From: Globodera rostochiensis
Lineage: Eukaryota > Nematoda > Chromadorea > Rhabditida > Heteroderidae
Length of the DNA stretch: 64,000 nucleotides
Direction: 5' to 3'
Assembly: GCA_018350325.1 (NCBI GenBank)
Contig: JAEVLN010000006.1
Coordinates: 953,193-1,017,192 of the forward strand
Shown here: piece after piece, positions 6,331 through 51,300 of the stretch
How positions within the stretch are numbered: position 1 is the first letter of the stretch
Layout of the letters: each line of letters starts with the position of its first letter
Position numbers and translations under genes: made by a program
The notes under the pieces: model-generated
Database searches by the model: none
Told to the model about the DNA's origin: nothing
The model's input: the letters and a program-made list of their open reading frames with translations, nothing else

Positions 6331-8110
6331 TCCAAAAATTTTTCCACTAAATATTATTGTTTTCACATAATTCAGTTTAAAAACATAAAAACAAAACACC
6401 TCGGGCGCAGTTTGGGGAACTTCCCAAAAAGAAAAAGAAAATTGAAGCCAGCGGCGGAACAACGTTTTTTGTATTAACCATTATTGGAAAAACGCTGAAA
6501 ATAAATTGCTTAAAAAAAAATAATAATAAAAGCCAAATTTTCAAAGTGAAAATGATTGCCCGTCCCATCGGATAATGACACCCACAGATCCAATCACTTC
6601 ACTCCCATTTCAGAAAATGTGGGCGAGGATGATTATAATTTTTTATAGTTATGCATAAAATAATGTAAATCAATGTGACGTACGGTGGTTAAATAAAATT
6701 TGGAATAATTAAAACAAAACAAAAAATGCAAAAAAAAATATAACGATAGTAAAATTAAAAGTTTATGCTAGGTTTTAAGTAAAATGAAAATATCGACCTT
6801 TTTCGATGTACGGCTACTATAAAAATGTGATCGAAAATGTGCACATTTTTTCAGTATTTTTCCAAAAAAGGCACCTAAATAATTGTAACCGGAATTTTCA
6901 TTCACATACTATAATTTGTTATTATGAAACAAATTCCAAAAAATTGCTCTAAAAATAAATTGGATATTGCAAAAAAAGACATTAAACTAATTGAAAATCC
7001 GAATTTTCAATCATCATATATACAATTTTCGCCCTGAGTTAATAAATAAAAAAGAAAAATGGGGCTCGGATTGCTTCATCGGACAAGAAATCGACTTTTG
7101 AATCGGTTGTTCCGGGACGTATTTGGGCAGTTCTGGTTGTCCTCCATGCTCCGGATCGGCCCAAATTGGGACTTTCCCGACGCGCTATTATAACCCCGGC
7201 GCATCCCTCCGCTCACAGACCGAATTGGTCTCTGTTCCTCCTCGGGAAGATGAATTTGATATTGAAGTTGAAGTTGAATTTGATATTGAATTTAAAGTTG
7301 AATTTGATATTGAATTTAAAGTTGAATTTGATATTGAAGTTGAATTTGATATGCCCGCGCCCTTCCCAACACAGTCGCGCTCAGCCTTGGCAAACAGTCC
7401 ATCCAAATTCACTGACCCTTCCGAGCCCACATTTGGGAATAAATGCAGCTATTTATATATGATAGACGCATTTGTTTCATCAATTTGTTGATGGGTTGCA
7501 AAAGGTGTGAGGGGATGCATTATTTGATGCACTATTTCTATTTTTTCGTACTTTTCTTCACAAATTCCAATTTTCTATGACTTCTCTAACTCAACATTTT
7601 GTAACAATCATTTTGAATATATTTGGTAAGATGAAAGTTATTTGTTCTCTCCTGGAACAGATGCAAAAAAAGGGTTCGTGTGACGCTCGAGCCCTAAACT
7701 TTACCGAGACTTGACCCCAAATCCCCCCAAAAATCCAAGACTTTTCGAGAATCGATACGAAAGACTTTCGAGCATCATTGTTATAAAGGTGACGAAATGA
7801 CCATTTTTAGGGCATTTGTCATCAGATTTTTAGTTTAAAATTATCAATTTCTCGTTTAAAAAATAGTTCACCTCCATTACACAACAGGGTTGCGTCAAAG
7901 GAGAAATTCAATAAATTAAGAGAATTTTGATCATTTAAAACTAAAAATTGAATAAATAGAATATTTTAAAGTATGCCATAATTTCAATAATTAAATTTTA
8001 ATCAGCCCTTTTGATGAATTCTGAGAATTTTTTGGGCCATATGAGTGAAATTTTTCTACACATCTAGTCATTGTTTTCAAGTGTTCGTTATTCATCAAAT
8101 CGGATATTCT
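6331..8110. other. AT-rich intergenic DNA, no gene supported
   Basis: Mostly long A and T runs with no exon-like composition. The exceptions are the G+C-richer stretch at 7070-7470, with a TATA-like motif and a short tandem repeat described separately. Confidence 0.5.
7250..7352. repeat. short tandem repeat around GTTGAATTTGATATTGAA
   Basis: Words of 6 and 18-24 bases (GAAGTT, GAATTTGATATTGAATTTAAA) are repeated about five times. Read on the plus strand they give an acidic FDIEVEVEFDIE peptide, on the minus strand an NSTSISNST-like peptide. Both are repeat artefacts unless transcription is shown. Confidence 0.6.
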
Positions 8111-13975: not shown

Positions 13976-15107
13976 TCATCGACAAAAAATAAATAACTCT
14001 ATGAGACTGGACAAAAGATAGACGACACAAAGGATCAGTGCCGGAATTGCCGATTTCTGATGCCAAAGTGGGCCATAAAAAGCTCCGCAGGCAATTGAAG
14101 CCAAAACACCCATCATCAAAAAAGCACATCCATTTTTTTTCAATCTTCGCTCCCGAACTTCATTATATCGTCGCCGGCGGCGCAACAAATCATTCGCATA
14201 ATGCCCGTCTTTGTGTTGGTCGCCGAAAGCGTTTTTTGCTAAATAAAAAAAATGTGTGCCATTTTATATAATTTTGTTAATTTGAGAGGCAAAGAATGAA
14301 TTGCTCAAATAATGTTATTTTTTGAAATCAATCTAACTAATTTCGATAAAATTTTTATTGAATTTCAAATTTATTCATAGTTTTTTTTTCTGAAAAAATA
14401 CTTATTTTTTGTTAGCAGTACAAAAAAGGTTTAATTTTTACAACTTTGAATTTTTTATTTTTTGTAAATTCAATTAATGTTTGGCAGGAAAAAATAAAAT
14501 ATTTTAAAATTTAAAAAAATTAAATTAATACTTGCCTTTAAGGAATGCCATAAACTTGTCGATCCCCATAATGAAATGTTCCATAAGTTTTGCCACTTTC
14601 TTTTGGTTTTTGTCATCGAGAATTGGATTTTTGAATATTTTTGGGATGTTTTGAGAAATGATTTGCTTAAAATCGGTTTTATCCATTAAATTTGTCGCCG
14701 TCTTTTCAATATTTAGAAATGACGTTTCATCCAAACTTTTTCCATTTTCCAATTGCTGACAAAAATTATTATGCATTTTTTTGAAATTTTCGTCCATTTT
14801 AAATTCCGCTTCCATTTTAAGGCAACATAAAACGCCAAAACCATGTTTTTGGAGCCATTTTAGTGCCAATTCCCGACCAAGTACCCCAGAATTTATTCCA
14901 CTGAATGAGTCCAACAATTCTTGGGCCGACTTTGACACATCTAAAAAAAGTTTTCGAACAATTCAATGTTTATGAATTATTATTTTAAATTTAATTTCCA
15001 CCTTTTTGGCATTCATTTTCGGCAACACTTTGATCACTCAGGGTCAATAAAATGAAGAATAATAAATATTCAAAACATTTTGATTTGTCAGATTTGAGTG
15101 AAAGCAT
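13976..15107 (-). CDS. secreted/membrane protein, tandem copy A (3 exons)
   Basis: Exons 15002-15107, 14525?-14940 and 13976-14238. Exon 2 is followed by an in-frame TAA, but CTTAAAGGCAA/GTATTAAT is also a good donor that joins exon 3 exactly in frame, giving an AAC codon. Product: N-terminal hydrophobic signal or anchor (FEYLLFFILLTLSDQSVA), a helical, cysteine-poor domain of about 140 residues, then in exon 3 NKNAFGDQHKDGHYAND, a run of arginines and two hydrophobic helices (CAFLMMGVLASIACGAFYG and PALILCVVYLLSSLIELF). If intron 2 is kept, a soluble secreted protein of about 172 residues results. A hydrophobic hairpin behind basic residues suggests membrane association in the longer form. 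I do not recognise the family; a secreted parasitism-type protein is possible. Confidence 0.6.
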
Positions 15108-17638: not shown

Positions 17639-18807
17639 TCATCTACAAAAAACATACAATTCTATGAGAGTAGACAAAAAAGAGACGGCACAAAGTATCA
17701 GTGCCGGAATTGCCCATTTGTGATGGAAAAGTCTGCCATAAAATACACCGACGCCAATTGCAACCAAAAGACGCAAAATGAGAAACGCACAAACTCGGGA
17801 TTCTCTCAATCTTTTCGCTTCTTCTTTTTTCCTTCTCGCTTCAATTTCACTTTCGATATCCATACGATAACGTCGCCGGCGGCGCAACAAATCATTCGCA
17901 TAATGCCCGTCTTTGTGTTGGTCGCCGAAAGCGTTTTTTGCTAAATAAAAAAAATGTGTGCCATTTTATATAATTTTGTTATTTTGAGAGGCAAAGAATG
18001 AATTGCTCAAATAATGTTATTTTTTGAAATCAATCTAACTAATTTCGATAAAATTTTTATTGAATTTCAAATTTATTCATAGTTTTTTTTCTGAAAAATA
18101 CTTATTTTTTGTTAGCAGTACAAAAAATTTTTAATTTTTACAACTTTGAATTTTTTATTTTTTGTAAATTCAATTAATGTTTGGCAGGAAAAAATAAAAT
18201 ATTTTAAAATTTAAAAAAATTAAATTAATACTTGCCTTTAAGGAATGCCATAAACTTGTCGATCCCCATAATGAAATGTTCCATAAGTTTTGCCACTTTC
18301 TTTTGGTTTTTGTCATCGAGAATTGGATTTTTGAATATTTTTGGGATGTTTTGAGAAATGATTTGCTTAAAATCGGTTTTATCCATTAAATTTGTCGCCG
18401 TCTTTTCAATATTTAGAAATGACGTTTCATCCAAACTTTTTCCATTTTCCAATTGCTGACAAAAATTATTATGCATTTTTTTGAAATTTTCGTCCATTTT
18501 AAATTCCGCTTCCATTTTAAGGCAACATAAAACGCCAAAACCATGTTTTTGGAGCCATTTTAGTGCCAATTCCCGACCAAGTACCCCAGAATTTATTCCA
18601 CTGAATGAGTCCAACAATTCTTGGGCCGACTTTGACACATCTAAAAAAAGTTTTTGAACAATTCAATGTTTATGAATTATTATTTTAAATTTAATTTCCA
18701 CCTTTTTGGCATTCATTTTCGGCAACACTTTGATCACTCAGGGTCAATAAAATGAAGAATAATAAATATTCAAAACATTTTGATTTGTCAGATTTGAGTG
18801 AAAGCAT
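17639..18807 (-). CDS. secreted/membrane protein, tandem copy B (3 exons)
   Basis: Exons 18702-18807, 18225?-18640 and 17639-17940, with the same structure, splice sites and optional stop as copy A 3.7 kb away. The 137 residues from exon 2 are identical in both copies, and the DNA of exons 1-2 and intron 1 is nearly so. In exon 3 the match is close only as far as the arginine run. Beyond it the copies differ by a 13-residue insertion (RMDIESEIEARRKKEEAKRL in B) and many substitutions, yet both keep two hydrophobic helices and the final FCR-stop. Upstream of exon 1 the copies diverge abruptly. The conserved exon 3 in both copies supports its use as coding sequence. Confidence 0.6.
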
Positions 18808-22973: not shown

Positions 22974-23501
22974 AACTTATTCTTTTTTTTAACTAAAGTT
23001 AAGCGAAATTCCCGAGATCGGACCAAAATCCCGGCTTTTTTACAGCGGCCGGGAAAGTGCCGGATTTGCGCCCTATAAATTATTCATTTTGGAATATTTG
23101 TAATCTCGGGACCCGGGTTTTCCAAAAATCCCGGGGTTTTCAATTTATTGTCACTAAAAGCGTTGAAACACGCAAAGGCGGGGGGACCTAGCAGTTTTGA
23201 ACCCACAAATTTTTGCTCTGTATTTGAAATTTAGTTGGCCCTGCTGAATGGTGTTCTATCGCGATGCTTTAACTTCGTTATATATGGAAATATTTAATTT
23301 TGCAATTTTTAATAAATAATGAAAATATTTGCAAAAATAAACAGGTTTTGCTACATTTCTTGTCACATCTCTACACCTACCTATGAATATTTTTGTTGTT
23401 GGCTAATCGTCGTTGATCATTGTTGGCACGTAATCCGTCGGCATTTTCTGGCTAAAATTTATAAATTCAAAATCAAAATAAAATCCCAATATTTTTTGGC
23501 T

Positions 23502-26500
23502 TTATTCTTGGTTATTCCGCTCCTTTTTTTGTATTTTTGTATAAATAATTAAAAAGTAAACGCACGCGCACTGTTCCGGCGTCGTGAGCCGCCCGCACTT
23601 TTTGCACGCTTTGGCACAGTTTTGTGCCATCCAATGCGGATTGCGCTCACATTCATTCATCGACGACGGCTTGCTACCACCACCATGCAGCAGCGTGTTG
23701 TGATCATCGTCGTCGTTTTCATGGTAGTGAGCCCAACGTTTGCATTCAGAATAAAGGTTTTTGCAGCCTGAAAGAATCAATTATAAATAGTCACTTAAAC
23801 GTACTCACTTAGAATATTTAAATTCAAAAAATAATCCCCAAAATTATTCAAATTTAATTATTCATTTAATAATAAGATTTTAAGCGGTAACGGCATCGGT
23901 GCCAATATTACGCGTAAACAAATTTATTAAAAATTTGAAACAACAAGTTAAGTGCCTTCATTGTCCGGAATCCGGAAATTGATACTCCATGAAATACAAA
24001 ATTTATTAAATTTCATGTGTTCGTGTTAATAGAAAAAAATCAATTAAGAGAACATGCTAGACAGATTCAAGCTGATTCCGCATCGTCAAAAAGTTGCAAT
24101 TAAAAATTAGACAGAGAATGCAAGTAGAGGCTCTGATCAAAACTAGAGTAGGTCACCGGGATTTTTGGGAAAACCCGGGACCGGGATTGAGAAAATTAAA
24201 AAACCGGGATTTTAGGAGTGGGAAAATTCAGTCCCAAAATTGGATAATTCAGTCCCAGTCCCGGTCCCGACCTACTCTAATCAAAACTGACCCGGTGTTC
24301 CCTGTTTTGCATGAGGCCGGCACCCATTGAAACGGCACGTGCCCGGGCACCACGTGTTCATTGTGCGTGGCGCTGACTTGCAGCCGCCCTTTGCGGCCCA
24401 GTGCATGCAACATTCGTGATTGTCATGGCAAACTCTATTCTTTGGTGGCGGAGGCTGTGTGAAAGGTGTTTTAATCACAAATAAAGCGCCACATAAAATG
24501 TTTATATGTGATTGACGGAGTAATTCTAAAACTCATATCAAACAAAAGGACGGATCCTATCAGTTTAAGCCAATTTATGGGCCTTCACATTTTCCCAAAA
24601 CGTGACTCAGGTCTCGAACCGAGCAAAGTCTCGGGGGTTTTTTGGTGGGTTTTGGACTTGAGTCTCGGGGTCAAGCCTCAGTTCGGGTCTCGGTAAATTT
24701 CAGATCTCGAACATCATTACAAATATCACAAAAATTAAAACAAAATCTTACGGTTGGTGACGGGGTGGTTGAGCCCCAATGTTTGCTTTTTGTTTTCTTC
24801 TTTTTCGGAGGCCGCGTTGTGCAGTCGTCCTATTTGAAAAATGACATTATTTCCGGAGCCATCGGTTTATTTATCTGCATAAATCGCTTAACATCTTTCA
24901 GGTCCGACTAGAGTACGGCGGAAACGGGATTCCCGCGGAAAAAGTACTGGATGCCAAGCGGGATTTTTGCGGGAATGGGTAAAACACGGAATTCCCGTTC
25001 AGGATTCCCGTCCCGCAACATTTTGAAATCCCGTTCACGGAATTTTTTGTTTTACCCGAGCTCTAGTTTCAAGGGCGTACGACCGAATCCAGTTCGGTCC
25101 GAATACAGACTGGGGCAATAACCGACTTTAAACTTAACCGATTCAGACTTTCAAAACATTCTTGAGACTTGTCCGATCGCAAAGCTTTACCTTATCGATA
25201 GCTTTGCCTCAACAGGAGCTTCGAATGATTTTTATAAAGTCTGAATCGGTTAAGGGTTAAGTTTAACGCAAGTTATTGCCCCGTTTTTGTATTCGAACCG
25301 GTCTGGATTCGGTTTCGACTGGTCAACAAACGCTCACACTGTTTTTGCCTTCACATCCGTCCGCTTTTTCTTCTGACGACGACGACGACTCGTCGGATGA
25401 GCTGTCGCTGACGGCCGATCGAACGCTCTAAGGAAAAGAAAGAAATTCTTTAAAAACATAATGCCAAGAATTTAAAGAGGGACACTATTTTTAAATACCC
25501 GTTTTATGGTCTCCGTTCCATTGCATTCTTTGCATACGCAACAACAGCTTAGATTTGGTGCTGAAATGTTCAATTATAAAAAAAGTCTAAAGAAGCAATT
25601 TATAATAGTTAAAAACTTTAAAAACCCATCTTTAATTAAAATTATTGGCTTTGGCTCATAAAATGCGTACATATAAATAGGGCGTTTGGCTTTTAGAGTC
25701 AGGACCATTAACCAAAATAAATTTAAAATTTTGTAGTTTTTTTTGAAAATTTCTAGAAAAATGTATACGAGTGAGTAAAGAAGTTTCACTTAATGTTGAG
25801 GCCATCATAGAAACGGTCGTGAAGGATGTCGTCATTGAGCTTGTTTCTGTTGATGGCACTGCGGCGGTAGTTTCGCTGGACGGCGGTGATGGGGTTATGC
25901 CAAAAGTTGATGAAGCTGTTAGCGCAGGAGAATTTGTGCTTGTTGAAGTTGTTTCAGTCTGATCAGTTTGCGCTGGAGGATTTGTGCTTGTTGAAGTTGT
26001 TTCAGTCTGATCAGTTTGCGCTGGAGGATTTGTGCTTGTTGTAGTTGTTTCAGTCTGATCAGTTTGCGCTGGAGGATTTGTGCTTGTTGAAGTTGTTTCA
26101 GTCTGATCAGTTTGCGCTGGAGGATTTGTGCTTGTTGAAGTTGTTTCAGTCTGATCAGTTTGCGCTGGAGGATTTGTGCTTGTTGAAGTTGTTTCAGTCT
26201 GATCAGTTAGAGCAGGAGGATTTGTGCTTGTTGAAGTTGTTTCAGTCTGATCAGTTTGCGCTGGAGGATTTGTGCTTGTTGAAGTTGTTTCAGTCTGATC
26301 AGTTAGCGCAGGAGGATTTGTGCTTGTTGAAGTTGTTTCAGTCTGATCAGTTTGCGCTGGAGGATTTGTGCTTGTTGAAGTTGTTTCAGTCTGATCAGTT
26401 AGCGCAGGAGGATTTGTGCTTGTTGAAGTTGTTTCAGTCTGATCAGTTTGCGCTGGAGGATTTGTGCTTGTTGAAGTTGTTTCAGTCTGATCAGTTTGCG

Positions 26501-29500
26501 CTGGAGGATTTGTGCTTGTTGAAGTTGTTTCAGTCTGATCAGTTAGCGCAGGAGGATTTGTGCTTGTTGAAGTTGTTTCAGTCTGATCAGTTTGCGCAGG
26601 AGGATTTGTGCTTGTTGAAGTTGTTTCAGTCTGATCAGTTTGCGCTGGAGGATTTGTGCTTGTTGAAGTTGTTTCAGTCTGATCAGTTAGCGCAGGAGGA
26701 TTTGTGCTTGTTGAAGTTGTTTTAGTCTGATCAGTTAGCGCAGGAGGATTTGTGCTTGTTGAAGTTGTTTCAGTCTGATCAGTTTGCGCTGGAGAATTTG
26801 TGCTTGTTGAAGTTGTTTCAGTATGATCAGTTTGCGCAGGAGGATTTGTGCTTGTTGAAGTTGTTTCAGTCTGATCAGTTTGCGCTGGAGGATTTGTGCT
26901 TGTTGAAGTTGTTTCAGTCTGATCAGTTAGCGCAGGAGGATTTGTGCTTGTTGAAGTTGTTTCAGTCTGATCAGTTAGCGCAGGAGGATTTGTGCTTGTT
27001 GAAGTTGTTTCAGTCTGATCAGTTTGCGCTGGAGAATTTGTGCTTGTTGAAGTTGTTTCAGTCTGATCAGTTTGCGCTGGAGTATTTGTGCTTGTTGAAG
27101 TTGTTTCAGTCTGATCAGTTTGCGCAGGAGGATTTGTGCTTGTTAAAGTTGTTTCAGTCTGATCAGTTAGAGCTGGAGGATTTGTGCTTGTTGAAGTTGT
27201 TTCAGTCTGATCAGTTTGCGCAGGAGGATTTGTGCTTGTTGAAGTTGTTTCAGTCTGATCAGTTTGCGCTGGAGGATTTGTGCTTGTTGAAGTTGTTTCA
27301 GTCTGATCAGTTAGCGCAGGAGGATTTGTGCTTGTTGAAGTTGTTTCAGTCTGATCAGTTTGCGCAGGAGGATTTGTGCTTGTTGAAGTTGTTTCAGTCT
27401 GATCAGTTAGAGCAGGAGGATTTGTGCTTGTTGAAGTTGTTTCAGTCTGATCAGTTTGCGCTGGAGGATTTGTGCTTGTTGAAGTTGTTTCAGTCTGATC
27501 AGTTTGCGCAGGAGGATTTGTGCTTGTTGAAGTTGTTTCAGTCTGATCAGTTAGCGCAGGAGGATTTGTGCTTGTTGAAGTTGTTTCAGTCTGATCAGTT
27601 TGCGCAGGAGGATTTGTGCTTGTTGAAGTTGTTTCAGTCTGATCAGTTAGAGCTGGAGGATTTGTGCTTGTTGAAGTTGTTTCAGTCTGATCAGTTAGCG
27701 CAGGAGGATTTGTGCTTGTTGAAGTTGTTTCAGTCTGATCAGTTTGCGCAGGAGGATTTGTGCTTGTTGAAGTTGTTTCAGTCTGATCAGTTAGAGCAGG
27801 AGGATTTGTGCTTGTTGAAGTTGTTTCAGTCTGATCAGTTTGCGCTGGAGGATTTGTGCTTGTTGAAGTTGTTTCAGTCTGATCAGTTAGAGCAGGAGGA
27901 TTTGTGCTTGTTGAAGTTGTTTCAGTCTGATCAGTTTGCGCTGGAGGATTTGTGCTTGTTGAAGTTGTTTCAGTCTGATCAGTTTGCGCAGGAGGATTTG
28001 TGCTTGTTGAAGTTGTTTCAGTCTGATCAGTTTGCGCTGGAGGATTTGTGCTTGTTGAAGTTGTTTCAGTCTGATCAGTTAGAGCTGGAGGATTTGTGCT
28101 TGTTGAAGTTGTTTCAGTCTGATCAGTTAGCGCAGGAGGATTTGTGCTTGTTGAAGTTGTTTCAGTCTGATCAGTTTGCGTTGGAGGATTTGTGCTTGTT
28201 GAAGTTGTTTCAGTCTGATCAGTTAGAGCTGGAGGATTTGTGCTTGTTGAAGTTGTTTCAGTCTGATCAGTTTGCGCAGGAGGATTTGTGCTTGTTGAAG
28301 TTGTTTCAGTCTGATCAGTTTGCGCTGGAGGATTTGTGCTTGTTGAAGTTGTTTCAGTCTGATCAGTTAGCGCAGGAGGATTTGTGCTTGTTGAAGTTGT
28401 TTCAGTCTGATCAGTTAGAGCAGGAGGATTTGTGCTTGTTGAAGTTGTTTCAGTCTGATCAGTTTGCGCTGGAGGATTTGTGCTTGTTGAAGTTGTTTCA
28501 GTCTGATCAGTTTGCGCTGGAGGATTTGTGCTTGTTGAAGTTGTTTCAGTCTGATCAGTTTGCGCAGGAGGATTTGTGCTTGTTGAAGTTGTTTCAGTCT
28601 GATCAGTTAGCGCAGGAGGATTTGTGCTTGTTGAAGTTGTTTCAGTCTGATCAGTTTGCGCTGGAGGATTTGTGCTTGTTGAAGTTGTTTCAGTCTGATC
28701 AGTTAGAGCAGGAGGATTTGTGCTTGTTGAAGTTGTTTCAGTCTGATCAGTTTGCGCTGGAGGATTTGTGCTTGTTGAAGTTGTTTCAGTCTGATCAGTT
28801 AGCGCAGGAGGATTTGTGCTTGTTGAAGTTGTTTCAGTCTGATCAGTTTGCGCTGGAGGATTTGTGCTTGTTGAAGTTGTTTCAGTCTGATCAGTTAGCG
28901 CAGGAGGATTTGTGCTTGTTGAAGTTGTTTCAGTCTGATCAGTTTGCGCAGGAGGATTTGTGCTTGTTGAAGTTGTTTCAGTCTGATCAGTTAGAGCTGG
29001 AGGATTTGTGCTTGTTGAAGTTGTTTCAGTCTGATCAGTTTGCGCAGGAGGATTTGTGCTTGTTGAAGTTGTTTCAGTCTGATCAGTTAGAGCAGGAGGA
29101 TTTGTGCTTGTTGAAGTTGTTTCAGTCTGATCAGTTTGCGCTGGAGGATTTGTGCTTGTTGAAGTTGTTTCAGTCTGATCAGTTTGCGCTGGAGGATTTG
29201 TGCTTGTTGAAGTTGTTTCAGTCTGATCAGTTAGAGCAGGAGGATTTGTGCTTGTTGAAGTTGTTTCAGTCTGATCAGTTTGCGCTGGAGGATTTGTGCT
29301 TGTTGAAGTTGTTTCAGTCTGATCAGTTTGCGCTGGAGGATTTGTGCTTGTTGAAGTTGTTTCAGTCTGATCAGTTAGCGCAGGAGGATTTGTGCTTGTT
29401 GAAGTTGTTTCAGTCTGATCAGTTAGCGCAGGAGGATTTGTGCTTGTTGAAGTTGTTTCAGTCTGATCAGTTAGCGCAGGAGGATTTGTGCTTGTTGAAG

Positions 29501-32500
29501 TTGTTTCAGTCTGATCAGTTTGCGCTGGAGGATTTGTGCTTGTTGAAGTTGTTTCAGTCTGATCAGTGAGGGGCTAATACTTTATTATTAATTATTATCA
29601 GTAGCGGATTTTTAGCATCGGCTATGCTGAAAAAAAGGCTTTTGTGCCTATTTTGCGATTAATCGAAAAAATCCTTAAGATAAATGCAATAAAACCAAAC
29701 AACACTCCTAAAAATCCGTTTTCTTTTTTTTATTTAGCATTAAGAGTACCCCAAGTTTTAAAAGTTTCAAGATAAAGTTGGAAATTGACTTTTTTTTAGG
29801 AAAATTAATCCACAAAAGTGAATTTTCTTTTACAAATGAAAGGATTTTGACCGAAAATCTGAGTTTGCAACTGCGAATAAAAAATTTAAAATTTTAAGCA
29901 AAAATTGGTAGGTTTTTTTTTTTACTTTTTTAAGATTTGTAGTGCCAACTTTGATGCTTTTTAATGCCTAATTGCTTAACCATTTTTTAAAAACGCTCCC
30001 TAATTATATTATTTTATTGAAAATGATTAAAATAAATAAATAAAATCACAACTAAATAACGATAAAAACTTTTTTTGTTATTACCACTTTACAGACGCCG
30101 TCAACACAAGTGGATGCGAAGCATGGTTCTTCACCTTAATCAGTTAATATAAAATAGTATTTTTTTATTATTATTAATTTAAAAATTTACTGTTTCCTTG
30201 GAAAATGGAACAATCGCCGCCAGACTTAATTTTTGCACAGCATAACGGACTCGGGTAACGCCGAGTCGTCGAATCGCAGAAAAGATAGCTTAACCGCCGC
30301 ATAAAATTACATTTTTTAGCTCTTTTAATTAATGTAGTTACTTAACTATAATTAAGCATCGGATTCCCCTTGGGGGCGAAAGAATAAGGAAAGTCTGTGC
30401 CTCCGACCCAAGCTGGAAGTATAACGGACTACTGGGAAGACTCAGACATAACGATCGAGGGGGCGTCATGTCTAAGTTGCCGGGTGAAAATTCGGAGGGG
30501 AAGGAGCTCATCCCTAAAAAGTTGACAATGTCTTTGTCAAAATTCGATACTAAAAAAATCTTAGACTTTTCAAAATCTCAAGATAATTATGTACAAGAAC
30601 CGTGCCCGGGGACCTTTCGACAGTAGAGGGCAATTCGACTTTACGTTTTTTTTCTTAGTTTTATAAATGCTTATTTGAAATTGTTTCAAAATATTTATTC
30701 TGTTGAAAAGTCCGAAAGCCTAAAAATCGGGCACCAAAATTCCTTACAAATTAGTGTATTTTTAAGTATTTTTCTAAAATTGTTAATTATTTTATTAATT
30801 GTTTATCAAAATTATTCACGCTGATCCACATTCGCCTGCCAATTTACACGTTGGTCGCGGCGCGTATGTGTACAAATTGTCCGTGTAGTCGTTGCTTAAG
30901 CCGGCTAAAAATTATTCCAAAATTAAAAAATAGCTTATTAATTTATTTGCCGTGACTTTGAAGAACCTGAAATTAGCACAACCGGATCCTGAAATGGAAG
31001 CATCGTCGCGTTGAGTCGACAATATGTCGACCCCGAACACTTAAATAATCAAATATTTCTAAATTCACTTTTAAATCTCTACAAAAAAAAAAATTTCCCG
31101 TAAATATTATTTTTTTAACAATTTATTACCGCAACAACTTGCGCATCGGGTGGAAATTGCGCCTCGCGCTCCTCGCGCGTTTGCCACTTTATGCGCCATT
31201 GTTCCCAAACCTGTTGTTCGTAATTTGCAATTAACATAATCAATAATCAATATCAATCAATCAATCGATCTTAAAACAAAATCAACGCACATAATCAACG
31301 AAGCAGTGATGGAGGAAGAAGATTGGGTCTTGCGTTGACGTGACTAATTGTGCCTAATTAACACAAATCGGGTCCATTTTCATAGATTTGGTAAATGGAT
31401 AAAACTCGTTAGTAACAGTAATAAAAATTAAAAAACGTTTAATTTTATTAAAAAAAATTCGAATTATATTATTAATTCCCAACAATTCCCAACCGACCAT
31501 ATCGCCGCCTATCCACGCATGAACATTGTTGTGATTCATCTCCAATATTTGTTCATCATCCGGAATTGGCTGAGTGCAATTGCTGGTTGATGTCTGAAAA
31601 ATATTTTGATTAATTTTGTTATATTATTATTATTTTGATTAATTTTGTTATTATTATTATTATTTAAAATGAGTGTAATGTTCAAAAAAGAATGTCCAAT
31701 TTAATAATCACACTAGAGAATGGACGGTCGAGATAAATTTTTTCAATATTCTCGATCGACGAAAATAGGTAAAATTAAAAATTACTCCTTCTGTAAATGC
31801 GAAAATGCCTTGCATTTCTCGGTACGTTATCGTGGCGACGACTCTGAACGAGTGAATAAAAAATGAAATTTAAATAATTTATATTTTAATTTACACTTAC
31901 TGATTCTCAGTCAGCAAATTACTAGGCATCATTTGCCCAAGATAGCGTTGTATTTTGTGTCCGCTAGCCTGCATTTTTTTGGTGGGATTTAAAACATAAA
32001 TATGTAATTAGCGCGATCATTAAATGCTAAATGATTACAGTAATCCAATTGGCCAAAAATCCGTTGGCAATTTGACCGTCGTCATTGTCCGATGTACCCA
32101 TGAACAAATTGCTCCACATGATGGAATCGGTCTGTTGTAAAAACAAATAATACAAATAGTAAATGAGGAAAAAGGGTACGGGATTCGGAAGTCGTTCGTC
32201 CATGGTCGAGTCCCAGTAGGGAAGGCACACGGATGGGTCGATGGCACGCAGTGCAAATTCCATCATAAAACAAGCATTTATTTTACCCATTTTCCTCCAT
32301 TAGCCACTCACTGTCGTTTGGTTAATATTTTCAAAATGTTTACAAACAAAAAAGATTTAAATTTATTACATTAAAAAAGATTAAAATTTTCAGTAATATT
32401 TGGCCTGCTGGTCCTCCCCCCCCCCCCCCCCCCCCCCTCCCTCCGCCCATGTTTAAAACAATAAATAAATAAACATTTTTAAAGTAGTGAAAAAGTGCTT

Positions 32501-35034
32501 CTAGAGATTTTCCGAGGCGTAGAATCCGAACAAAAACCTCAGTTTCAAACAAATTCAAATTCGGAACAAAGAATTCAAACAACATTCGAGAAAATTTAAA
32601 ATTTTTTCCAAAACATTCGGCCTCAAAATCTTCAAAAATCACAAAATTACAACGAAAAGATGCAATCGAATTCATATGCTTTTGATGATTTTGAGGCCAA
32701 CATCAATTTTTGGCAGATATTGTAGAAGTTTCGACTCGTTTAGGGGGTGTTTTTTTCAAGTTTAATAAAAAGGGCCCAGTTTCCCGGAGGGGGGGGGGAC
32801 AAGGCCCGAGAAGCGAACTTTTTGTTTAGAAATTCACCTTTTCAAAAATTCACGGTGCCAAAGCACAAAGGTCGGAGCGCCGTGGGCGCACGGCATCATC
32901 CGCGCATTGGAATGGAGGAAGGAAATTCGATCGTATTCGTAGGAGCCGAAGCCATTTTTTAGTTGAAGCAATGCGGCGTGCTTAAATTAAATTTTATTTG
33001 TTTTAATAAAAAAATATTACAATTAGGTTAATGAAGCGAAACATTTATTTCTTACAAGCAAAATTGTTGAAAATTGTTTTAATGAAAGGGCACGCAGATA
33101 TTATTTAGGTATATGCAACCAAAAAAACGACACTTTTTAAGTGTAAACATTAAAGAGTGTTCTCGAGTCTTGACTCAAGAAATGTCTCGTTTTTGGTTCT
33201 CGGTGTCCAGTCTTGATTCTCGGGGTCAACTCTCGGGTTTTGAGTTTCGGTAAAAACCAAAGGTTGCAAAGTCAAAAAACACAATGCCAACTAGTGCTCG
33301 GCAATGGCCTCGATACGATAAAATATCGCTATCGAAAAAACCCGATATTTCGCGATATTTTATCGAAATATCGTTCCGAGCACTAATGCCAACCCATTTT
33401 AGCCACTTTTGGTATATTTATTAATTTTCTTAACAAAAATGGGCGAGCGCAAAAAAAAATTGACCATTTTTTGAATTTTTGCTTGCAAATCCCTTAATAA
33501 AAAAGGCATTTAAACAGCGCCTATCGGCACCATCATGTATCGGTTAAAGAAAGATCTCTGCAAAATGAGGCTTTTGAAAATTTTCTCTTGGAAGCGCCGT
33601 GCCGTAAGAACCACCGGTATGCCATTGACAAGTACTGAAGCAAAAACAAATTTTTCCATTTCTCGAGAGACCAAAAACTTTAATCGATTCTTTAAATCGT
33701 ATATTTCACATATTGGGCACCCAAAAAGTTGCTCACGAATCGTGCTCGCTGATTGTCGCTGAGCATCCGGTACTCCATGCGCTCACATTTTGCCAAAATC
33801 GTTTTCGACGACCCGTCCAACCCCCGTCGCCAGCGTCTACCATATGAACAAGGACCAGAGCGTGGCGAGTCGAAACCTGAAGGCATTAAAATTTGAATTT
33901 TCACAAAAATCACAGTGAAAAGAGTAGGGGGGATTCCGTGCCGTGCCGTGCCGTAAATGTAGAGAAGACACAACTTCATTCTCCATTTCTTCAATTCGCA
34001 TTAGCATATGCTCACCGGGCATGTACGTGCTCAGGCAACTGGTGTTGAAGCACGCGTATAGTTCAGAGACCACAGAGGGCGGCGGTTGCGCCGCTTTTTC
34101 CGCAGGCGTCGGTTTTCGAAATGTCGGCATGCCTGTAAAAATGCCTATGTGTATAAGCTCTCAGGCATGGGCACGGATATCCGCGGATATATCCGGATAC
34201 GAAAATTCGTATCCGTGCCGATGTCTGTATAAGCTAATGAAACATGACAACAAATATCGGCTGGTTCCTCAACTCGGCACCGCTTGCAATTTTAGACTGC
34301 AGTTACATATTATGACTGGAGCCGAGATTTTTATGGACATGCGCGGAGCCGGGACTCCGCTGTTTGTCCAGGAGCCTTTTTTTGAATAGAACCCCTCAAT
34401 CGCTAAGCTTTCCGTTCGATATAAAGTCAGAATATTTGATTTTTGCTTAAGTAACGATAAAATTATGACTGATGACGCCAAAATGGACGGCGCCGAGTTG
34501 GCTGGTTCCGTAAAAGTGACATCATTTTGCTAACCGAGCCCCGGGGATGGCGGCGGTAATTCGGTCGCTGGCAAAAGTCGGCCTTCTCGTTCCGCCTTAA
34601 TTGCTTTTTGTTAGCAAACAAACAACATGAACACTGAAAGAATGAGGCATTTTTTGTAAAGTTTTAAAAATAGTACAAAATTTAAAAGTATAAAATTGTC
34701 TAATTTTCAGTCACAAACGCTTTGTATAATCTCTCTAAATGCTCTTTTCGTCATTTTTTTCGCTAACCTTTCTGGCTTCCAACCAAAATTGCAGCCTCAT
34801 TTTGCACGCTCGTCGTAACTCTCTGCCAAATCTGTCGCAAACGGTTAAATTCACTGCCAGCAAATCGCCGACGTCAATGACGACGGCCAATGGCGGCGGT
34901 GTGCCAGCAGTGGACGTGGTGCCATTATCGGCGTAAGTGCCGCCGACGACATGTCGACGATGTTGGCCAATAATGGTGGAAATAATGAGCTCGGTCAACA
35001 AACAAAATTTGATTTTGGTGGATAATCCCATCAT
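23502..35034 (-). CDS. Tyrosinase with giant mucin-like exon and two ShKT modules (21 exons, 1985 aa)
   Basis: Exons, 5' to 3': 34768-35034, 34535-34595, 34016-34132, 33737-33876, 32838-32980, 32180-32264, 32039-32131, 31901-31968, 31786-31843, 31494-31593, 31291-31343, 31130-31210, 30967-31039, 30820-30904, 30191-30288, 30085-30134, 25769-29573, 25499-25560, 25338-25427, 24292-24454, 23502-23767. The sum is 5958 bases. An N-terminal signal-like segment ([17 protein letters not shown]) is followed by a tyrosinase domain. Its CuA histidines are about 218, 228 and 237 ([20 protein letters not shown]) and CuB about 365, 369 and 390 ([27 protein letters not shown]). The Cys-rich [16 protein letters not shown] region follows, then residues 525-1792 of Thr/Ser/Pro repeats, then two ShKT modules ([17 protein letters not shown]..., [16 protein letters not shown]). 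Nematode tyrosinases oxidise phenols, for example in cuticle or eggshell hardening, and often carry ShKT modules. The long repeat linker is the odd part. The exon 6 acceptor is non-canonical and the last exon may extend past 23502 by splicing. Confidence 0.88.
24144..24279. mobile_element. hAT-like element (136 bp), 8-bp duplication ATCAAAAC
   Basis: Inverted ends TAGAGTAGGTC and GACCTACTCTA enclose ACCGGGATTTTTGGG and CCCGGTCCCG words, and ATCAAAAC flanks both sides. It lies in the intron between the two ShKT exons of the tyrosinase gene. Confidence 0.85.
24910..25075. repeat. GGGATTCCCG palindromic island with CTAGAG ends
   Basis: Words GGGATTCCCG and GCGGGATTTTTGCGGG recur between CTAGAGTACGG and CCGAGCTCTAG. 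It is similar in style to the 136-bp element nearby, but no target duplication is seen. Intron of the tyrosinase gene. Confidence 0.5.
25078..25322. repeat. large imperfect inverted repeat (hairpin element)
   Basis: The outer arms pair over about 50 bases (CGACCGAATCC...GGGGCAATAAC with GTTATTGCCCC...GGATTCGG). The inner arms pair CTTAACCGATTCAGACTTT with AAAGTCTGAATCGGTTAAG. The loop region holds AAAGCTTTACC. The right end abuts exon 19 of the tyrosinase gene. Confidence 0.6.
25946..29566 (-). repeat. 48-bp coding tandem repeat, about 75 copies
   Basis: 3.6 kb of 48-base units at near-perfect register fill most of exon 17 of the tyrosinase gene. In the minus reading frame each unit gives [16 protein letters not shown], with Q or L at position 8 as the main change. 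The other frequent variants are synonymous there (CCA/CCT for Pro, GCG/GCT for Ala), while on the plus strand the same bases would change amino acids. The unit has no cysteine and seven threonines plus two serines, as in O-glycosylated mucin domains. Rare variants (GAAG to GTAG near 26041, CAG to TAG near 26725) keep the minus frame open. Confidence 0.9.
30355..30653 (+). ncRNA. possible structured Pol III RNA inside a tyrosinase intron
   Basis: This roughly 300-base stretch is much more G+C-rich than the introns around it. It has no coding frame and ends in a T-run (ACGTTTTTTTTC, 30643-30654) like a Pol III terminator. It contains GGAAAGTC followed by CCTCCGACC, GGGGGCGTCATGTC and GGAGGGGAAGGAGCTCATC, words reminiscent of conserved parts of RNase P and RNase MRP RNAs. 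The order and pairing could not be verified by hand, and a repeat element is the alternative. Confidence 0.25.
33292..33385. mobile_element. 94-bp hAT-like element, 8-bp duplication ATGCCAAC
   Basis: Ends TAGTGCTCGG and CCGAGCACTA are perfect inverted copies, with ATGCCAAC on both sides. The inside consists of GATATTTCGCGATATTTT words. It lies in the intron between tyrosinase exons 4 and 5. Confidence 0.85.
34165..34227. repeat. GGATATCC palindromic island
   Basis: GGGCACGGATATCCGCGG and its inverted partner CGTATCCGTGCC enclose TATCCGGATACG. It is a minimal version of the palindrome-built elements, in the intron between tyrosinase exons 2 and 3. No duplication was found. Confidence 0.45.
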
Positions 35035-35958: not shown

Positions 35959-38900
35959 TCACTCGGTATTTTGTGTCACATTTTGATACGTTGTTGCACA
36001 ATGTTTGACACTTTCGGACATTTGTTGCGATTCGTTGACAATCGCCTGGCGCTTCTTTCGAACTTTGTCCATCATTTTACGCATTTGTTCCCATTTTTGC
36101 GTGCAATTTTCACGGACACACAAACGTTTTTTCTCAGTGATCATTTCGGCCAGCTTTTTAAATGTAATTTTGTTGAATATTATGCCTGTCCATGCATAGC
36201 TCCAGCTCATCTCGGCCGGATAGCATTTCAAATCCAAATAGTCCAGTACGCCCTCTGCCGTCATCCGTTTTTGGGGTACAATGTGCAACAAATTCTGAAC
36301 TATTAGCCGTTACAATTTGACTATTTTTATCAATAAAAATGTATTAAAAGATAGGCAAAATGGTAGCCCCGGGGGCGGCAATCGACCTAAGGCAAAATGG
36401 TAGCCCCGGGGGCGGGAATCGAACCCACAATTCTCGGCTTCGGTGATCATTGTGCTTCACAACCAAGCCAATGAATGGGCCCCTTGCCCCCTGAGGACGT
36501 TCTAACCGTCCATCTAGCTGGGACACTTTTTGCTTCCTTACAATGTCGTTAATTTAGATTGGGAGCATTAAATCATTTAAAGTAAAATGTAAGAGCAACT
36601 TGGTGCGGGTCTATTTTTTCTGATTACAAACAAACGAATAAGATTTTTTTGTTGTTTTTAGTTTTTTGTTCGCAATTCGGCGACGCCTCAGATTAATTTG
36701 TATCATTTTTACTTTTTGTATATAAAATGATTCAGACCGTTAATAGCACAGCAAGTCGGGTACTTTTAATCCAAAATTTAAAAATGCGTTTGATTCCCTC
36801 TGCCGATGAATTTAACCAGCGCAAATCGTAGACAAATTTCTTTGGAATTAACAATTTTGCATTAAGATTGATTGATCTTCCACTGTAGATGGCCAGAGCT
36901 TGTAACAGTTTTAATGTAATGTTCAACTTAATATTTTATGAAATATATTTACAAAGTAAAAAACAATTAAAGAGACAAAAAAAATTTTTTTACTTATTTT
37001 ACCCGAAAATTCTCTGTGCTTTCGTTTAACTGCTGCGCCTTTCTTTCGCTTTTTACCAAAAGAATTTCATAAATCATTATTCCCAATGACCAAATGTCTG
37101 CTTTTGATGAGGTCTAAAGATCAGAGCACCAATTCAAAAAATGAAATTATAAAGTACAAATCAATCACACATTGTGAATTATAATATTTTCAAAAAAGAT
37201 TTTGATAGTGTTTTTGTTATAAAAACAACATTCCTAGGCAATCCGGGCTTGCTGAATCCGAATCAGAGGTCAAAATGATTTTACTTTTAGTCCCGGTTTT
37301 GGATTTTTCAAAAATCCTGGTCCCGCCGTCCAACTCTAATTGTGGGGGGGGGGGGCTCATATTTGAACCTGTCTTTTTCTAATTAGATGAAGCTTTAGCA
37401 TAATTTTAACGTCAGAATTGGATTCAGCGTGCTTTTGAATAAATGCAAAAAGGCTCAATAAACATTACTAAAAATCTTCCTGCTGCTGAATGTTTTTTTT
37501 AAATCAAAGAAAAAAAACAAATTTATTACGTCGTACCCCATGCAGCATTCGGTAACTTTCGGGACTGGAATACATCGGTGAAGCCAGCCGCATTTTGGGT
37601 ATTTTTCGATAGTCGGCCCGCTTACGGCGTTCCAATCGACGGCGCCACAACAGCCAGCCAACCTTTTCGGGAAATTGTTCCGCTCCATCAAAATCAATAA
37701 GTTTAAGCCGCTCCCCCTCCTCCTCCCCCTCCTCCTCCTCTTTGTCCTCCGCCGCCGTCTCAGTGCCACCACTTGGGACGAACAAAAAGTTTTGCGGCTT
37801 CACATCCAAATGCATGCCAACTGTCAAAGGTGCCAAAAAAAAATTACTTTTTTCTAGAACTCATCGATACTGGGACCACTAATTCAAAAAGTCCTAGAGT
37901 GAACTTGCTGAATAAAAATTTTAAGCAATTCGATTTTACGCTCGTATGAACCCGGTTTTTGGAAAACCTATTTTGGCATTTTTTTTTATATCAACATTTT
38001 TCGATCCTAAAAATCTATTATGATGTTTTCTTATTATTACAGAAATTTATTTTGGTTCTAAAAAATATAAAAATTAAAATTATGTAAATATTTTCAGAAA
38101 CTATAGGTACACCCTCTAATTGTAGCATTCCCCTCGAGGTGGGGGGAGGTTCAAAAATAAAGCTCCGGAGCTTCTAATAGAGGAAATACGGTATATAAAA
38201 AATATAATTTTCATTTTCTTAAATAAATTTTGTAAAAAATAAATGTTTCTTTTTATTTTTCAGTTGTTTAATTGGCGAACCCTGATGCATTTCCTTGATT
38301 GGCTCCACAATTTGTCGAATCATCGCCTCAATTCCTGGCAAATTGTCGCTGTTATATAAGCGATGATCAAATCCATCGCTACCCTTTTCCATTATTATTA
38401 GTGCCCGTTTTGGCCTTCTTTTTGGGCTGCCGATTATTATTCCACTGTAACAATTTAATTGTATTAATTTATTAATAAATATCATTAAAAAAATATTTGT
38501 AAAACTGAAAGATACAAATTATACTTATTAAATTGTAAAATTTAGAATTTCTTTCTTTTTAAATAAATATCTAATTAAAGTAATTTGTAAAACAAATGCC
38601 TCACAAATCGTAAATTTTTAGAAGATGCCTTTTCTTCGCGTCGTCCAATTTTTCAATTTTGTTCAACACTTTTGCCGAATTACGGAAGCCTTTGCTCGAA
38701 ATATTTCCCCGACCATCCAATTCGATTTCTTTCACCGCTAAACACCGATTTTCCGGAATTCCAAGCGCTTCTCCATTTTTTACGAAAGCAACAAAAACCT
38801 TTAAAAATTTATTTAAATTTAATCTGGTTTCTATAATTTAGGGTAAATTTATTGTTTGGAAATTATATTTTATTTGCATTGGAACCTTCCACATTTCCTC

Positions 38901-40868: not shown

Positions 40869-41663
40869 ATCTTCACTGTGTCCGTCTATCTTCAACAAAT
40901 TTGGTACATTTGCTGAGGCCTATTTAAATTTCCGACGTATCGCCGTTAAGATGTCATATGTGTAAAAAACTGTCTAAATACGATATCCTAAAATTAAGTT
41001 TCAATTAATTTCAACGATACGACATCGGAGGTTAATAAATAAAATGAGTACTTTCCTGTTTTGCGACCCCCTCATCAAATCTGCTGAAAAACATCATATT
41101 TGGGGTTTTCAAGGGTGCTGATCAGGGGTGCTCGTAACCATCAAAAAAAATTCGTAATAAGTAATCCGTAATTAGTAAAAGGCAAAAAAAATTCGTAATA
41201 AGTAATCCGTAATTAGTAAAAGGCAAAAAAAATTCGTAAAAAGTAATCCGTAATTCGTAAAAGCCAAAAAAATTCGTAAAAAGTAATCCGTAATTCGTAA
41301 AAGGCAAAAAAAATTCGTAAAAAGTAATCCGTAATTCGTAACAGCCAAAACGCCGTAAAAAGTAAGTAATTCGTAATTCGTAACTCGTAATTCTCAAATT
41401 TTTTTTAATACATCGAATCTCAAAATTTACTTCATATCATTAATCAAAATTATAAAGTAGGATATTGTGGTGACAAAAGACTAAGTTTTCGGGCAACATT
41501 TCGTTCTCAGGTCGGTAACCATCAATCCGGCAGTCAGATGGGAGGGGTCGGCGGTGTGAAATTGCCAATATTTCTTATATTTTGGGAATTTTTCCAAATT
41601 TTTGAAAAATCAGAAAACCTGGTACATAAGGTACTATGGCCACCCTGGCCACACCCCCGAAAT

Positions 41664-48335: not shown

Positions 48336-51300
48336 TTAACTTCCCGAATGAGGTTGCACGGCATTTCTGTTGAATAATTTGATGATCGTTTGCCATTCTT
48401 TGTCAAAAGCCTTCCGATATTCTTTGCTAAAAATTAATATTTTTTAAAATTCGATATTTGCTTTTTATTTTTACCTTGTAAAATAAAGAATTGGCGCATT
48501 GGAGGCGGCACTGATGTTCAACAGAATGCCAAAGATTTGATTCAATTTCCATATTGACATTATGTCATTTCCAAACATCGGAATAATGATTATGTGAGCG
48601 AAATTTAGAAAATATCCGCCAATATTCACGGAAACGATGGCAAACAATGTTTTAAATATGCGAATGTTGAATTGATGTGAGTTGGAGTTGGGCGGTGCTT
48701 TAAAATAAAAAAAAAATATATTTAAAATATCTTTTTGAATTTAAAAATACATTTTTTGAAGTAAATAACAATTGCAACGACCGCATAGAGAACAATTGTT
48801 GTCAGCAACATTGCATTTATTATTGTTGGCCAAATAAACTCCGACGAATTTGTGCATTGATACTTAATGTAATTGTTAAAAAATTATAATTTAAATCTAT
48901 TATTTACTGTAAATTTATACAAATAAAAATGGTGGGTTATGGTACGCTTCCAAATTTATATATAGATTAATTGCTATTTGTGCTTAGTAACTTAGAAAAT
49001 AAGTCAAATGCTAAAAACCTAAATATGATATTTATATGGTAAATTGGGTGTTTTAGTGATTAGCAATTACTCAATGACCCAAATAATGCTTGGAGCTGTT
49101 ACCATAACCCAAAGTACCCTTAAAATAATACAGAAGCCATTCCAATGTCATTCATTGTGCCAGCAACGAGTGTTTTGTCTGCCGAATCGCAACTTTGAGA
49201 ATAAACATATAAAACATTGCATAACCCAATGAAAGGTAATGTGATAACATACAAAAAAACATTTTTTGACTGTCTAAAAATGAAAATGAAAATTATTTAA
49301 ATTACTAATAATTTTACCTTAGCGGAAAAATCACAGCAATGAGTCGGTCAATGCTTGTAAAAAAGAGTAAAAAAATTGTGCAAGAAACTGCAAAATTCGA
49401 AGGCGTAAGAATTCGAACGACGATTTTGTAGGGCATTAAATATTGGCCAGAAATCACAGAATATGTGAATAAAAAATGGCCAGATTGGTGGACAATTTCG
49501 AAAAAGGAATAAATGGCCAACAATTTGTTGGCGGAATTGTTTAAATGCCTAAAATACCGTAAACACTCTTGTAATCCCATCTCCTCTAATAATCCCGCCC
49601 CTTCGGAGGGGGTTGAAAAATAATCCCACCCCCTCTAATAATCCCGCCCCTTCGGAGGGGGTTGAAAAATAATCCCACCCCCTCTAATAATCCCGCCCCT
49701 TCGGAGGGGGTTGAAAAATTATCCCACCCCCTCTAATAATCCCGCCCCTTCGGAGGGGGTTGAAAAATAATCCCACCCCCTCTAATAATCCCGCCCCTTC
49801 GGAGGGGGTTGAAAAATAATCCCACCCCCTCTAATAATCCCGCCCCTTCGGAGGGGGTTGAAAAATAATCCCACCCCCTCTAATAATCCCGCCCCTTCGG
49901 AGGGGTTGAAAAATAATCCCACCCCTCTAATAATCCCGCCCCTTCGGAGGGGGTTGAAAAATAATCCCACCCCCTCTAATAATCCCGCCCCTTCGGAGGG
50001 GTTGAAAAATAATCCCACCGCCCCTTCGGAGGGGGTTGAAAAATAATCCCACCCCCTCTAATAATCCCGCCCCTTCGGAGGGGGTTGAAAAATAATCCCA
50101 CCCCTCTAATAATCCCGCCCCTTCGGAGGGGGTTGAAAAATAATCCCACCCCCTCTAATAATCCCGCCCCTTCGGAGGGGTTGAAAAATAATCCCACCCC
50201 TCTAATAATCCCGCCCCTTCGGAGGGGTTGAAAAATAATCCCACCCCTCTAATAATCCCGCCCCTTCGGAGGGGTTGAAAAATAATCCCACCCCCTCTAA
50301 TAATCCCGCCCCTTCGGAGGGGGTTGAAAAATAATCCCACCCCCTCTAATAATCCCGCCCCTTCGGAGGGGGTTGAAAAATAATCCCACCCCTCTAATAA
50401 TCCCGCCCCTTCGGAGGGGGTTGAAAAATAATCCCGCCGGTGGGATTACAAGTGTTTACGGTATTTCCTTTTAAGCTTTATTATTCTTTAGTTTTATTTG
50501 AATATTATTTAGATAATTCCACGAATATTATCAAAAAGTTGCTTCGATTTTAATTATTTAGTAATTAACCATTCTTTAATTAAATGTCAACAAACTTTGC
50601 CCGAATTGTAACGTAAACAACTGACAAATTCAAAAAAATGCCAACAATCGCTAAAATTGAATAAATTGAAGCAAATATAATCAAAGTCCAGCAGGGACGA
50701 GCATTTGCTAATTCGAAATAGACCTTAAATAAATTAAAAATAATAAATAAAAAAATACGTTAGGTTTGCACGGGACCGGTACCGAGTCGGGATTTCCCGG
50801 TTTTTTCAGGTCCCAGTCCGGGAGATAAGTCCCGGTTTCGGTTTTTTAGTCCCGCCGGGACTGGGATCAACCGGGACTAAATTTACACCACTAAAGATGA
50901 CATCATTGAGATACGCTTCCCCCATTAATAAAAAATTTTTAAATAAATTTCATATTTTTTTAATTAAAGAGCGCGCAAAAAAAGCATTTTATACATCTCA
51001 AAATCCCCCCCCCCCCCCCCCCGGGGGCGTCAATCGGCATCGCGGGGCTCTCCCAAAAAAATTTAAAATTTTCTTTAAAAGGGTCGAGCACTTAATACCC
51101 GTACCCGCAATTTCATTTGATGTTGACAATGAGGTCGAAAATCAAGAAGATCAACAATATGTGTGGCCGGAAAATTTAAATTTTTTAGTGTGTTTCGATA
51201 AAAGAAAAATTTCTCAATTGAAAAGTCCCGGTGAAAATCTTGGGCCCGGTCCCGGTAAGTCCCAAAGTCCCGGTCCCGTGCAACCCTAATTTAAATCATT

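Follow-up and report, generated by a model that had tools for sequence, protein, structure and literature searches.

A Globodera rostochiensis tyrosinase gene model that may join a long mucin-type repeat to two ShK modules

In contig JAEVLN010000006.1 of the Globodera rostochiensis genome (GCA_018350325.1), a long tandem array of a 48 bp unit lies among the exons of a tyrosinase gene and is open in a frame that can be joined to them. This raises the question of whether the array is translated, giving an enzyme with a mucin-like stalk, or is an intronic minisatellite whose open frame has no coding significance. The locus was examined in a 64,000 bp stretch of the contig (positions 953,193 to 1,017,192), referred to here as the window, and the coordinates given are those of the window except where another locus is named.

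The tyrosinase gene was modelled on the minus strand (35034-23403) as 23 exons encoding 2,018 residues, with one terminal stop. The original prediction of a single minus-strand gene with all exons joined in phase was retained, but the number of exons was revised from 21 to 23. The end of the gene, previously placed at 23502, was also revised. Position 23502 is reached when the penultimate exon is read on into the next intron, and the C-terminus and stop codon are probably encoded by a last exon at 23403-23451 (acceptor score 8.0). In the product, a hydrophobic N-terminus that resembles a signal peptide (by eye) is followed by the tyrosinase domain, a Cys-rich segment, the repeat exon, the 21 residues of a further Cys-rich exon, a short linker and, finally, two ShK domains.

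Most exons are supported by matches to paralogs, principally the loci L025, L026, L027 and L042. All four match exon 1 (34768-35034), which includes the start codon, the hydrophobic N-terminus and a Cys-containing region. Exon 2 (34535-34595) is 81 % identical in L042, and paralog matches were also found for exon 3 (34016-34132). Exons 4 to 12 make up the tyrosinase core, which begins with an EYRML motif in exon 4 (33737-33876) and ends in exon 12 (31130-31210), both with paralog matches. The CuA site (LHS..AHG..WHRE) is in exon 5 (32838-32980), identified by comparison with paralogs and hemocyanins, and the CuB site is divided between exon 10 (31498-31593; HNNVH) and exon 11 (31291-31353; DPIFFLHH), which match both paralogs and hemocyanins. 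Exon 7 (32039-32131) has paralog matches, while exon 8 (31901-31968) and exon 9 (31786-31843) were placed using splice sites and phase, as their best paralog matches (E 0.46 and 0.095, respectively) are not significant. The acceptor of exon 6 (32180-32294), placed by paralog comparison, is uncertain and is considered separately below. Exons 13 (30967-31039), 14 (30820-30904), 15 (30191-30288) and 16 (30085-30134) also match paralogs; the last two encode the Cys-rich segment and exon 16 ends in phase 0.

No paralog counterpart was found for exon 17 (25769-29573), which consists of the Thr-rich repeat and a Ser/Thr-rich tail. Exon 18 (25499-25560) encodes the 21 residues that include five Cys, and its paralog match is not significant. 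Exon 19 (25338-25427) encodes a Ser/acidic linker that, by eye, resembles the first part of the L025 linker (match not significant), and exon 20 (24752-24829) completes the linker with STTPSPT, an ending common to the paralogs by eye. The first ShK domain is in exon 21 (24292-24454) and the second, with an internal insertion, is in exon 22 (23566-23767); both exons match paralogs.

Elsewhere in the window, an open frame with a DUF1759 match (87.2 bits) at 1-1209 on the minus strand is presumably part of a retroelement. Two near-identical 145-codon open frames, also on the minus strand, are found 3.7 kb apart at 14528-14962 and 18228-18662, and no Pfam family scored above the cut-off for either. 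A weak protein-kinase match (16 bits, below the cut-off) at 37507-37860 on the minus strand is probably an exon of a neighbouring gene.

The original prediction included a tyrosinase domain with both copper sites and two ShKT modules, and both were borne out. In a Pfam search, the model protein, which included the 10 residues of exon 6 that are in doubt, matched the tyrosinase domain PF00264 with 119.4 bits (cut-off 22.6) over positions 3-212 of the 214 in the profile. The two ShK domains (PF01549, cut-off 20.9) scored 29.4 and 25 bits, though the second match spans only positions 15-37 of 37. Fifty distinct PDB sequences, including bacterial tyrosinases, match the product with E up to 0.001. 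In the two alignments printed, both to molluscan hemocyanins, the copper motifs are in register, with AHG..WHRE, HNNVH and FFLHH aligned and the first CuA His (LHS) placed by position. Molluscan hemocyanins and bacterial tyrosinases of known structure are like the window gene in their type-3 copper sites, but these matches carry neither ShK modules nor a mucin stalk, whereas the gene model has both. At the second copper His of CuA, the window gene has C-A-H, similar to the C-x-H of hemocyanins, and the position of the Cys is occupied by Ser or Gly in L025, L026, L027 and L042. A site of the C-A-H type could allow a Cys-His thioether bond.

The window gene, L025, L026, L027 and L042 form a subfamily of at least five genes. 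Identity to the window gene over the 48-residue CuA exon is 77 % for L026 (C10:652250), 73 % for L042 (C30:390844), and 69 % for both L025 (C80:501921) and L027 (C10:661964), and is 44-53 % for seven places in contig C6. Tyrosinase genes are clustered at G000:C6:155142-216041, and several of them have ShK-like exons. The four closer paralogs match the window gene both before and after the stalk, with the two ShK exons among the matches, and no significant matches to exons 8, 9, 18 or 19 were found in them. In place of the repeat, a short linker connects the Cys-rich segment to the first ShK domain in these paralogs. The linker lengths, determined by eye, are 77 residues in L025 and 56 in L026, with 24 in L042 and 21 in L027, where one exon was read, and the Ser/Thr fractions range from 0.27 to 0.54. 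The window gene retains a linker of this kind (exons 19 and 20, 56 residues) in addition to exons 17 and 18, and the linker exons end in TPSPT in the window gene, L025, L027 and L042 and in TPSLT in L026.

In L025, L026 and L042, the join between exon 16 and the equivalent of exon 19/20 is in phase 0 (by eye). Exons 17 and 18 of the window gene lie inside this phase-0 intron, where the paralogs show no such exons. Their combined length of 3,867 bases is divisible by 3. When exon 17 alone is skipped, a stop follows immediately, but when exons 17 and 18 are both skipped the frame is kept. The pair is thus a symmetric phase-0 cassette, closed by exon 18, and transcripts lacking it would encode a stalkless form like the paralogs.

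The boundaries (29573-25769) and length (3,805 bp) of exon 17 are as originally predicted. Tandem repeat detection and a count of the spacings placed 76 units of 48 bp at 25920-29567, so the 16-residue unit stands, while the earlier count of about 75 becomes 76. The units fall into 13 types. Variation is frequent at three sites (two synonymous, one Q/L), and the 16-residue unit has a variant with L in the last position. As the units are otherwise homogeneous and each of the 7 kinds of rare change alters the encoded residue, a purifying signal among the units is absent and purifying selection within the array is unsupported. When 38 bases of the unit were compared with the 92.6 Mb assembly, allowing up to 3 mismatches, all 76 matches were at this locus, and the possibility that the repeat is a dispersed element was rejected at this setting.

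Past the array, the same frame continues for a tail of 50 residues, 27 of which are Ser or Thr. No ungapped register aligns the tail to the repeat with more than 38 % identity, and hence the tail is not an obvious decayed copy of it. An origin of the tail as duplicated sequence was also rejected, as only its own position was matched with E up to 1. The repeat and tail together make up 1,268 residues, including 473 Thr, 166 Ser, 153 Pro and 154 acidic residues, but only 2 basic residues (one Lys, one His) and no Tyr or Cys. Mucin-type PTS regions are long stretches in which Ser/Thr reach at least 40 % and Pro at least 5 %. Here, Ser/Thr account for 639 of the 1,268 residues (50 %) and Pro for 12 %, in line with this rule, and the label "mucin-like" fits the composition of the exon. 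No Pfam family was found in the repeat region at E up to 1.

Whether the array is coding must be judged on more than its open frame. All 75 spacings are exactly 48 bp and the sense frame is free of stops for 1,216 codons. However, the unit consensus is open in 3 of the 6 frames, and an open frame through the array is consequently, by itself, weak evidence for coding. A second large array, in L025 (1802-3294, G000:C80), consists of 62 copies of a 24 bp unit (96 % matches) in the interval between exons 3 and 4, which is an intron by homology. Its longest open stretch on the sense strand is 178 codons, but the three antisense frames are completely or almost completely open over 505-506 codons, indicating that non-coding introns in this tyrosinase family do give rise to long open arrays whose unit length is a multiple of three. 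These observations, the lack of a purifying signal and the fact that exon 16 can be joined in phase to exon 19, as the paralogs seem to do (by eye), are all consistent with the repeat being an intronic minisatellite. The gene would then produce a short-linker ShK tyrosinase, and the open frame would be a by-product of the 48 bp unit length.

We consider this reading unlikely, though it deserves some weight. The array in the window gene has no indels in 75 spacings, versus 9 of 54 anchor spacings that depart from 24 or its multiples in the L025 array (six of 47, two of 23 and one of 52), where the indels break the frame. TRF detected nine other arrays with at least 5 copies in the window and at the L025, L026, L027 and L042 loci. 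Eight of them have indels at one period or another, and the remaining one, at 7246-7349, is 104 bp long; several arrays with fewer than 5 copies are likewise free of indels. Usable donor and acceptor sites surround the tail and exon 18. The strongest argument against a minisatellite is the tail, which is extremely rich in Ser/Thr and in the same frame. Its 27 Ser/Thr were not reached in any of 20,000 dinucleotide shuffles (mean 10.9, maximum 22). The tail also ranked first for Ser/Thr among 55,205 open 50-codon stretches from both strands of 244 kb outside the array, a number that is not one of independent stretches as they overlap one another and some of the loci overlap. The runner-up, with 25 Ser/Thr, overlaps a simple repeat at 7221-7370. 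The tail is thus the best evidence that exon 17 would be coding. Further arrays in the window, as listed by TRF period, are at 49572-50435 (approximately 9 copies, 1-6 % indels) and 41142-41350 (approximately 5 copies, 0-1 %).

Other ways of reading the array were also examined. As the repeat frame contains no ATG ahead of the tail and has a stop just upstream of 29573, translation that begins at an ATG could reach the array only via a splice junction, and an independent ATG-started mucin gene was rejected. The nearest upstream exon of the model is exon 16, and its end phase fits exon 17. The plus strand, which is open for 947 and 226 residues, was not a better candidate, as there are two stops within the array in that frame.

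Acceptor sites were scored using a matrix derived from 36 sites taken as homology-supported, 17 from the window gene and 19 from the paralogs. Their range of 2.4 to 12.2 is flattering, as the training sites score themselves. Immediately before AG, 15 of the 36 have C, 11 have T, 9 have A and one has G, and TAG and AAG acceptors are therefore ordinary in this tyrosinase family. The exon 17 acceptor (tattag) scores 4.8, inside the family range, and the acceptors of exons 18 and 19 score 6.0 and 4.2, respectively. However, four candidates in the intron between exons 16 and 17 score higher, namely 29626 (8.7), 29673 (6.5), 29707 (5.2) and 30051 (4.9), and a candidate inside the array at 29524 (6.3) also exceeds 4.8. 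By direct reading, entry in phase 0 at any of the four upstream sites leads to a stop within 11 codons, and at 29626 this is the fifth codon. The stronger upstream acceptors are real evidence that 29573 would not be used exclusively. Were one of them, for example 29626, chosen in one class of transcripts, these would end shortly beyond the Cys-rich segment and encode a short tyrosinase without stalk or ShK modules, and the downstream exons would rarely be used. This outcome appears quite improbable, given that ShK exons 21 and 22 match the paralogs well, which suggests that they are used.

A different difficulty concerns the enzyme itself. At the exon 5/6 boundary, L026, L027, L042, L014 and L018 have CAG or TAG acceptors. 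In contrast, the intron end in the window gene (32838-32270) and in L025 (approximately 3765-3895) is TGTTTTAT, which is not AG. Heteroderid introns are reported to be GT/AG, GC/AG and traces of AT/AC (PMC11817004), with a high rate of GC/AG introns in Globodera (PMC4901422), and the TGTTTTAT junction fits none of these. In L026, exon 3 apparently ends at a GC donor (G|GCACAA, approximately 4384), consistent with the GC/AG rate reported. In the window gene, the sole nearby AG that keeps the frame is the acceptor used in the model for exon 6 (ctaatggag before 32294). This is a poor GAG that scores -0.2, compared with 2.4 to 12.2 for the 36 other family acceptors, and its use inserts approximately 10 residues that are absent from the paralogs and hemocyanins. 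At the L025 junction, no in-frame AG was found by reading. The window gene and L025 appear to have in common either an unusual 3' splice site or damage at exon 5/6, and the lack of a normal acceptor places the continuity of the enzyme in doubt.

If the loss of this acceptor, which is present as AG in L026, L027 and L042, had broken the enzyme, the array could have grown in a decaying gene copy free of selection. We regard this as very improbable. The remaining exons are open and most of them match the paralogs, although exons 8, 9, 18 and 19 have no significant match. That L025 has the same TGTTTTAT end also points to inheritance of an unusual site and not to recent decay.

Tyrosinases of the Heterodera schachtii Hs-Tyr type are reportedly expressed in glands and secreted into plants. 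Nematode proteins with a tyrosinase domain and ShK modules include Hs-Tyr and Caenorhabditis elegans TYR-1 to TYR-6 (PMC13273113 and PMC5537230), and the association is also recorded in PMC10857297. The window gene is like them in having both in one protein. However, Hs-Tyr is reported to have four ShK-like sequences (PMC5537230), compared with two in the window gene. The C. elegans TYR proteins are described with an N-terminal ShK module, whereas both modules of the window gene are C-terminal, and a long repeat is not mentioned for the TYR proteins or Hs-Tyr in the descriptions consulted (PMC13273113 and PMC5537230).

Toxocara canis MUC-1 to MUC-5 are secreted, O-glycosylated mucins of the surface coat with a Ser/Thr-rich core and paired ShKT flanks (PMC3611597), and the same plan of mucin core and paired ShKT is described in PMC13273113. 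The likeness to the window gene, a Ser/Thr-rich stretch with a ShKT pair, is one of plan, and homology of the cores is not claimed. The Toxocara proteins are 176-316 residues in total, with no enzyme domain mentioned in the description consulted (PMC3611597), compared with a core of 1,268 residues and a tyrosinase in the window gene. The MUC family is defined as having no other domain, and the window gene, with a signal peptide by eye, does have one, namely the tyrosinase domain. The C. elegans PHAT pharyngeal-gland proteins also have ShK modules parted by Ser/Thr-rich stretches but, unlike the window gene with its tyrosinase, they are described as consisting of a signal peptide and ShK motifs only, and ShK proteins that carry further domains, TYR-1 being an example, are noted not to be specific to the gland (PMC2563036). 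The claim that a mucin repeat beside ShKT modules was undescribed therefore has to be narrowed. Mucin with ShKT is known (PMC3611597 and PMC13273113, with PHAT resemblance in PMC2563036), but its fusion to a tyrosinase appears to be unreported. No report of tyrosinase, mucin and ShK together was found in searches of the open PubMed Central literature. Thus, tyrosinase with ShK and mucin with ShK are both known in nematodes, and the triple combination may be new.

Overall, the predicted tyrosinase-repeat-ShK fusion is upheld at the level of sequence, with extra support from the paralogs, the array and the tail. We think it likely that the product is a secreted type-3 copper tyrosinase linked via a long mucin-type stalk to two ShK modules, and that at least a fraction of the transcripts include exon 17 and are translated through it. 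The stalk would be polyanionic, rich in Thr, Ser and Pro, hydrated, heavily O-glycosylated and extended. Mucins extend approximately 0.25 nm per residue, which would give a stalk of approximately 0.3 µm. The ShK pair would anchor or dock the stalked enzyme in the surface coat, the cuticle or a gland secretion, and the enzyme would oxidise phenols or the Tyr residues of neighbouring proteins. Without Tyr, the stalk cannot serve as a tyrosine substrate of its own enzyme and, with only one Lys, it would be a spacer or anchor rather than a self-crosslinking substrate. A matrix-building function, as originally proposed, is plausible. Tanning of the cyst wall by polyphenol oxidase has been proposed, and a literature search on this subject found no papers.

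How the stalk was acquired is more tentative. A scheme to which we give slightly less than an even chance is that an exon pair bearing a minisatellite was recruited in the ancestral phase-0 intron, creating a skippable cassette that encodes a mucin segment of 1,289 residues. One gene could then supply both a stalkless and a stalked oxidase, with a stalk adjustable via the repeat number, and two secretory plans known from nematodes, the ShKT tyrosinase and the mucin-ShKT coat protein, would have been merged in a single chain. If the array is translated, a single polypeptide would combine an oxidase that cross-links the matrix with the mucin-ShKT plan of nematode surface coats and gland linings. 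It would then be a candidate for placing phenol oxidation in the nematode surface, the cyst wall or a secretion, and the gene would be an example of an intronic minisatellite turned into a very long coding stalk.
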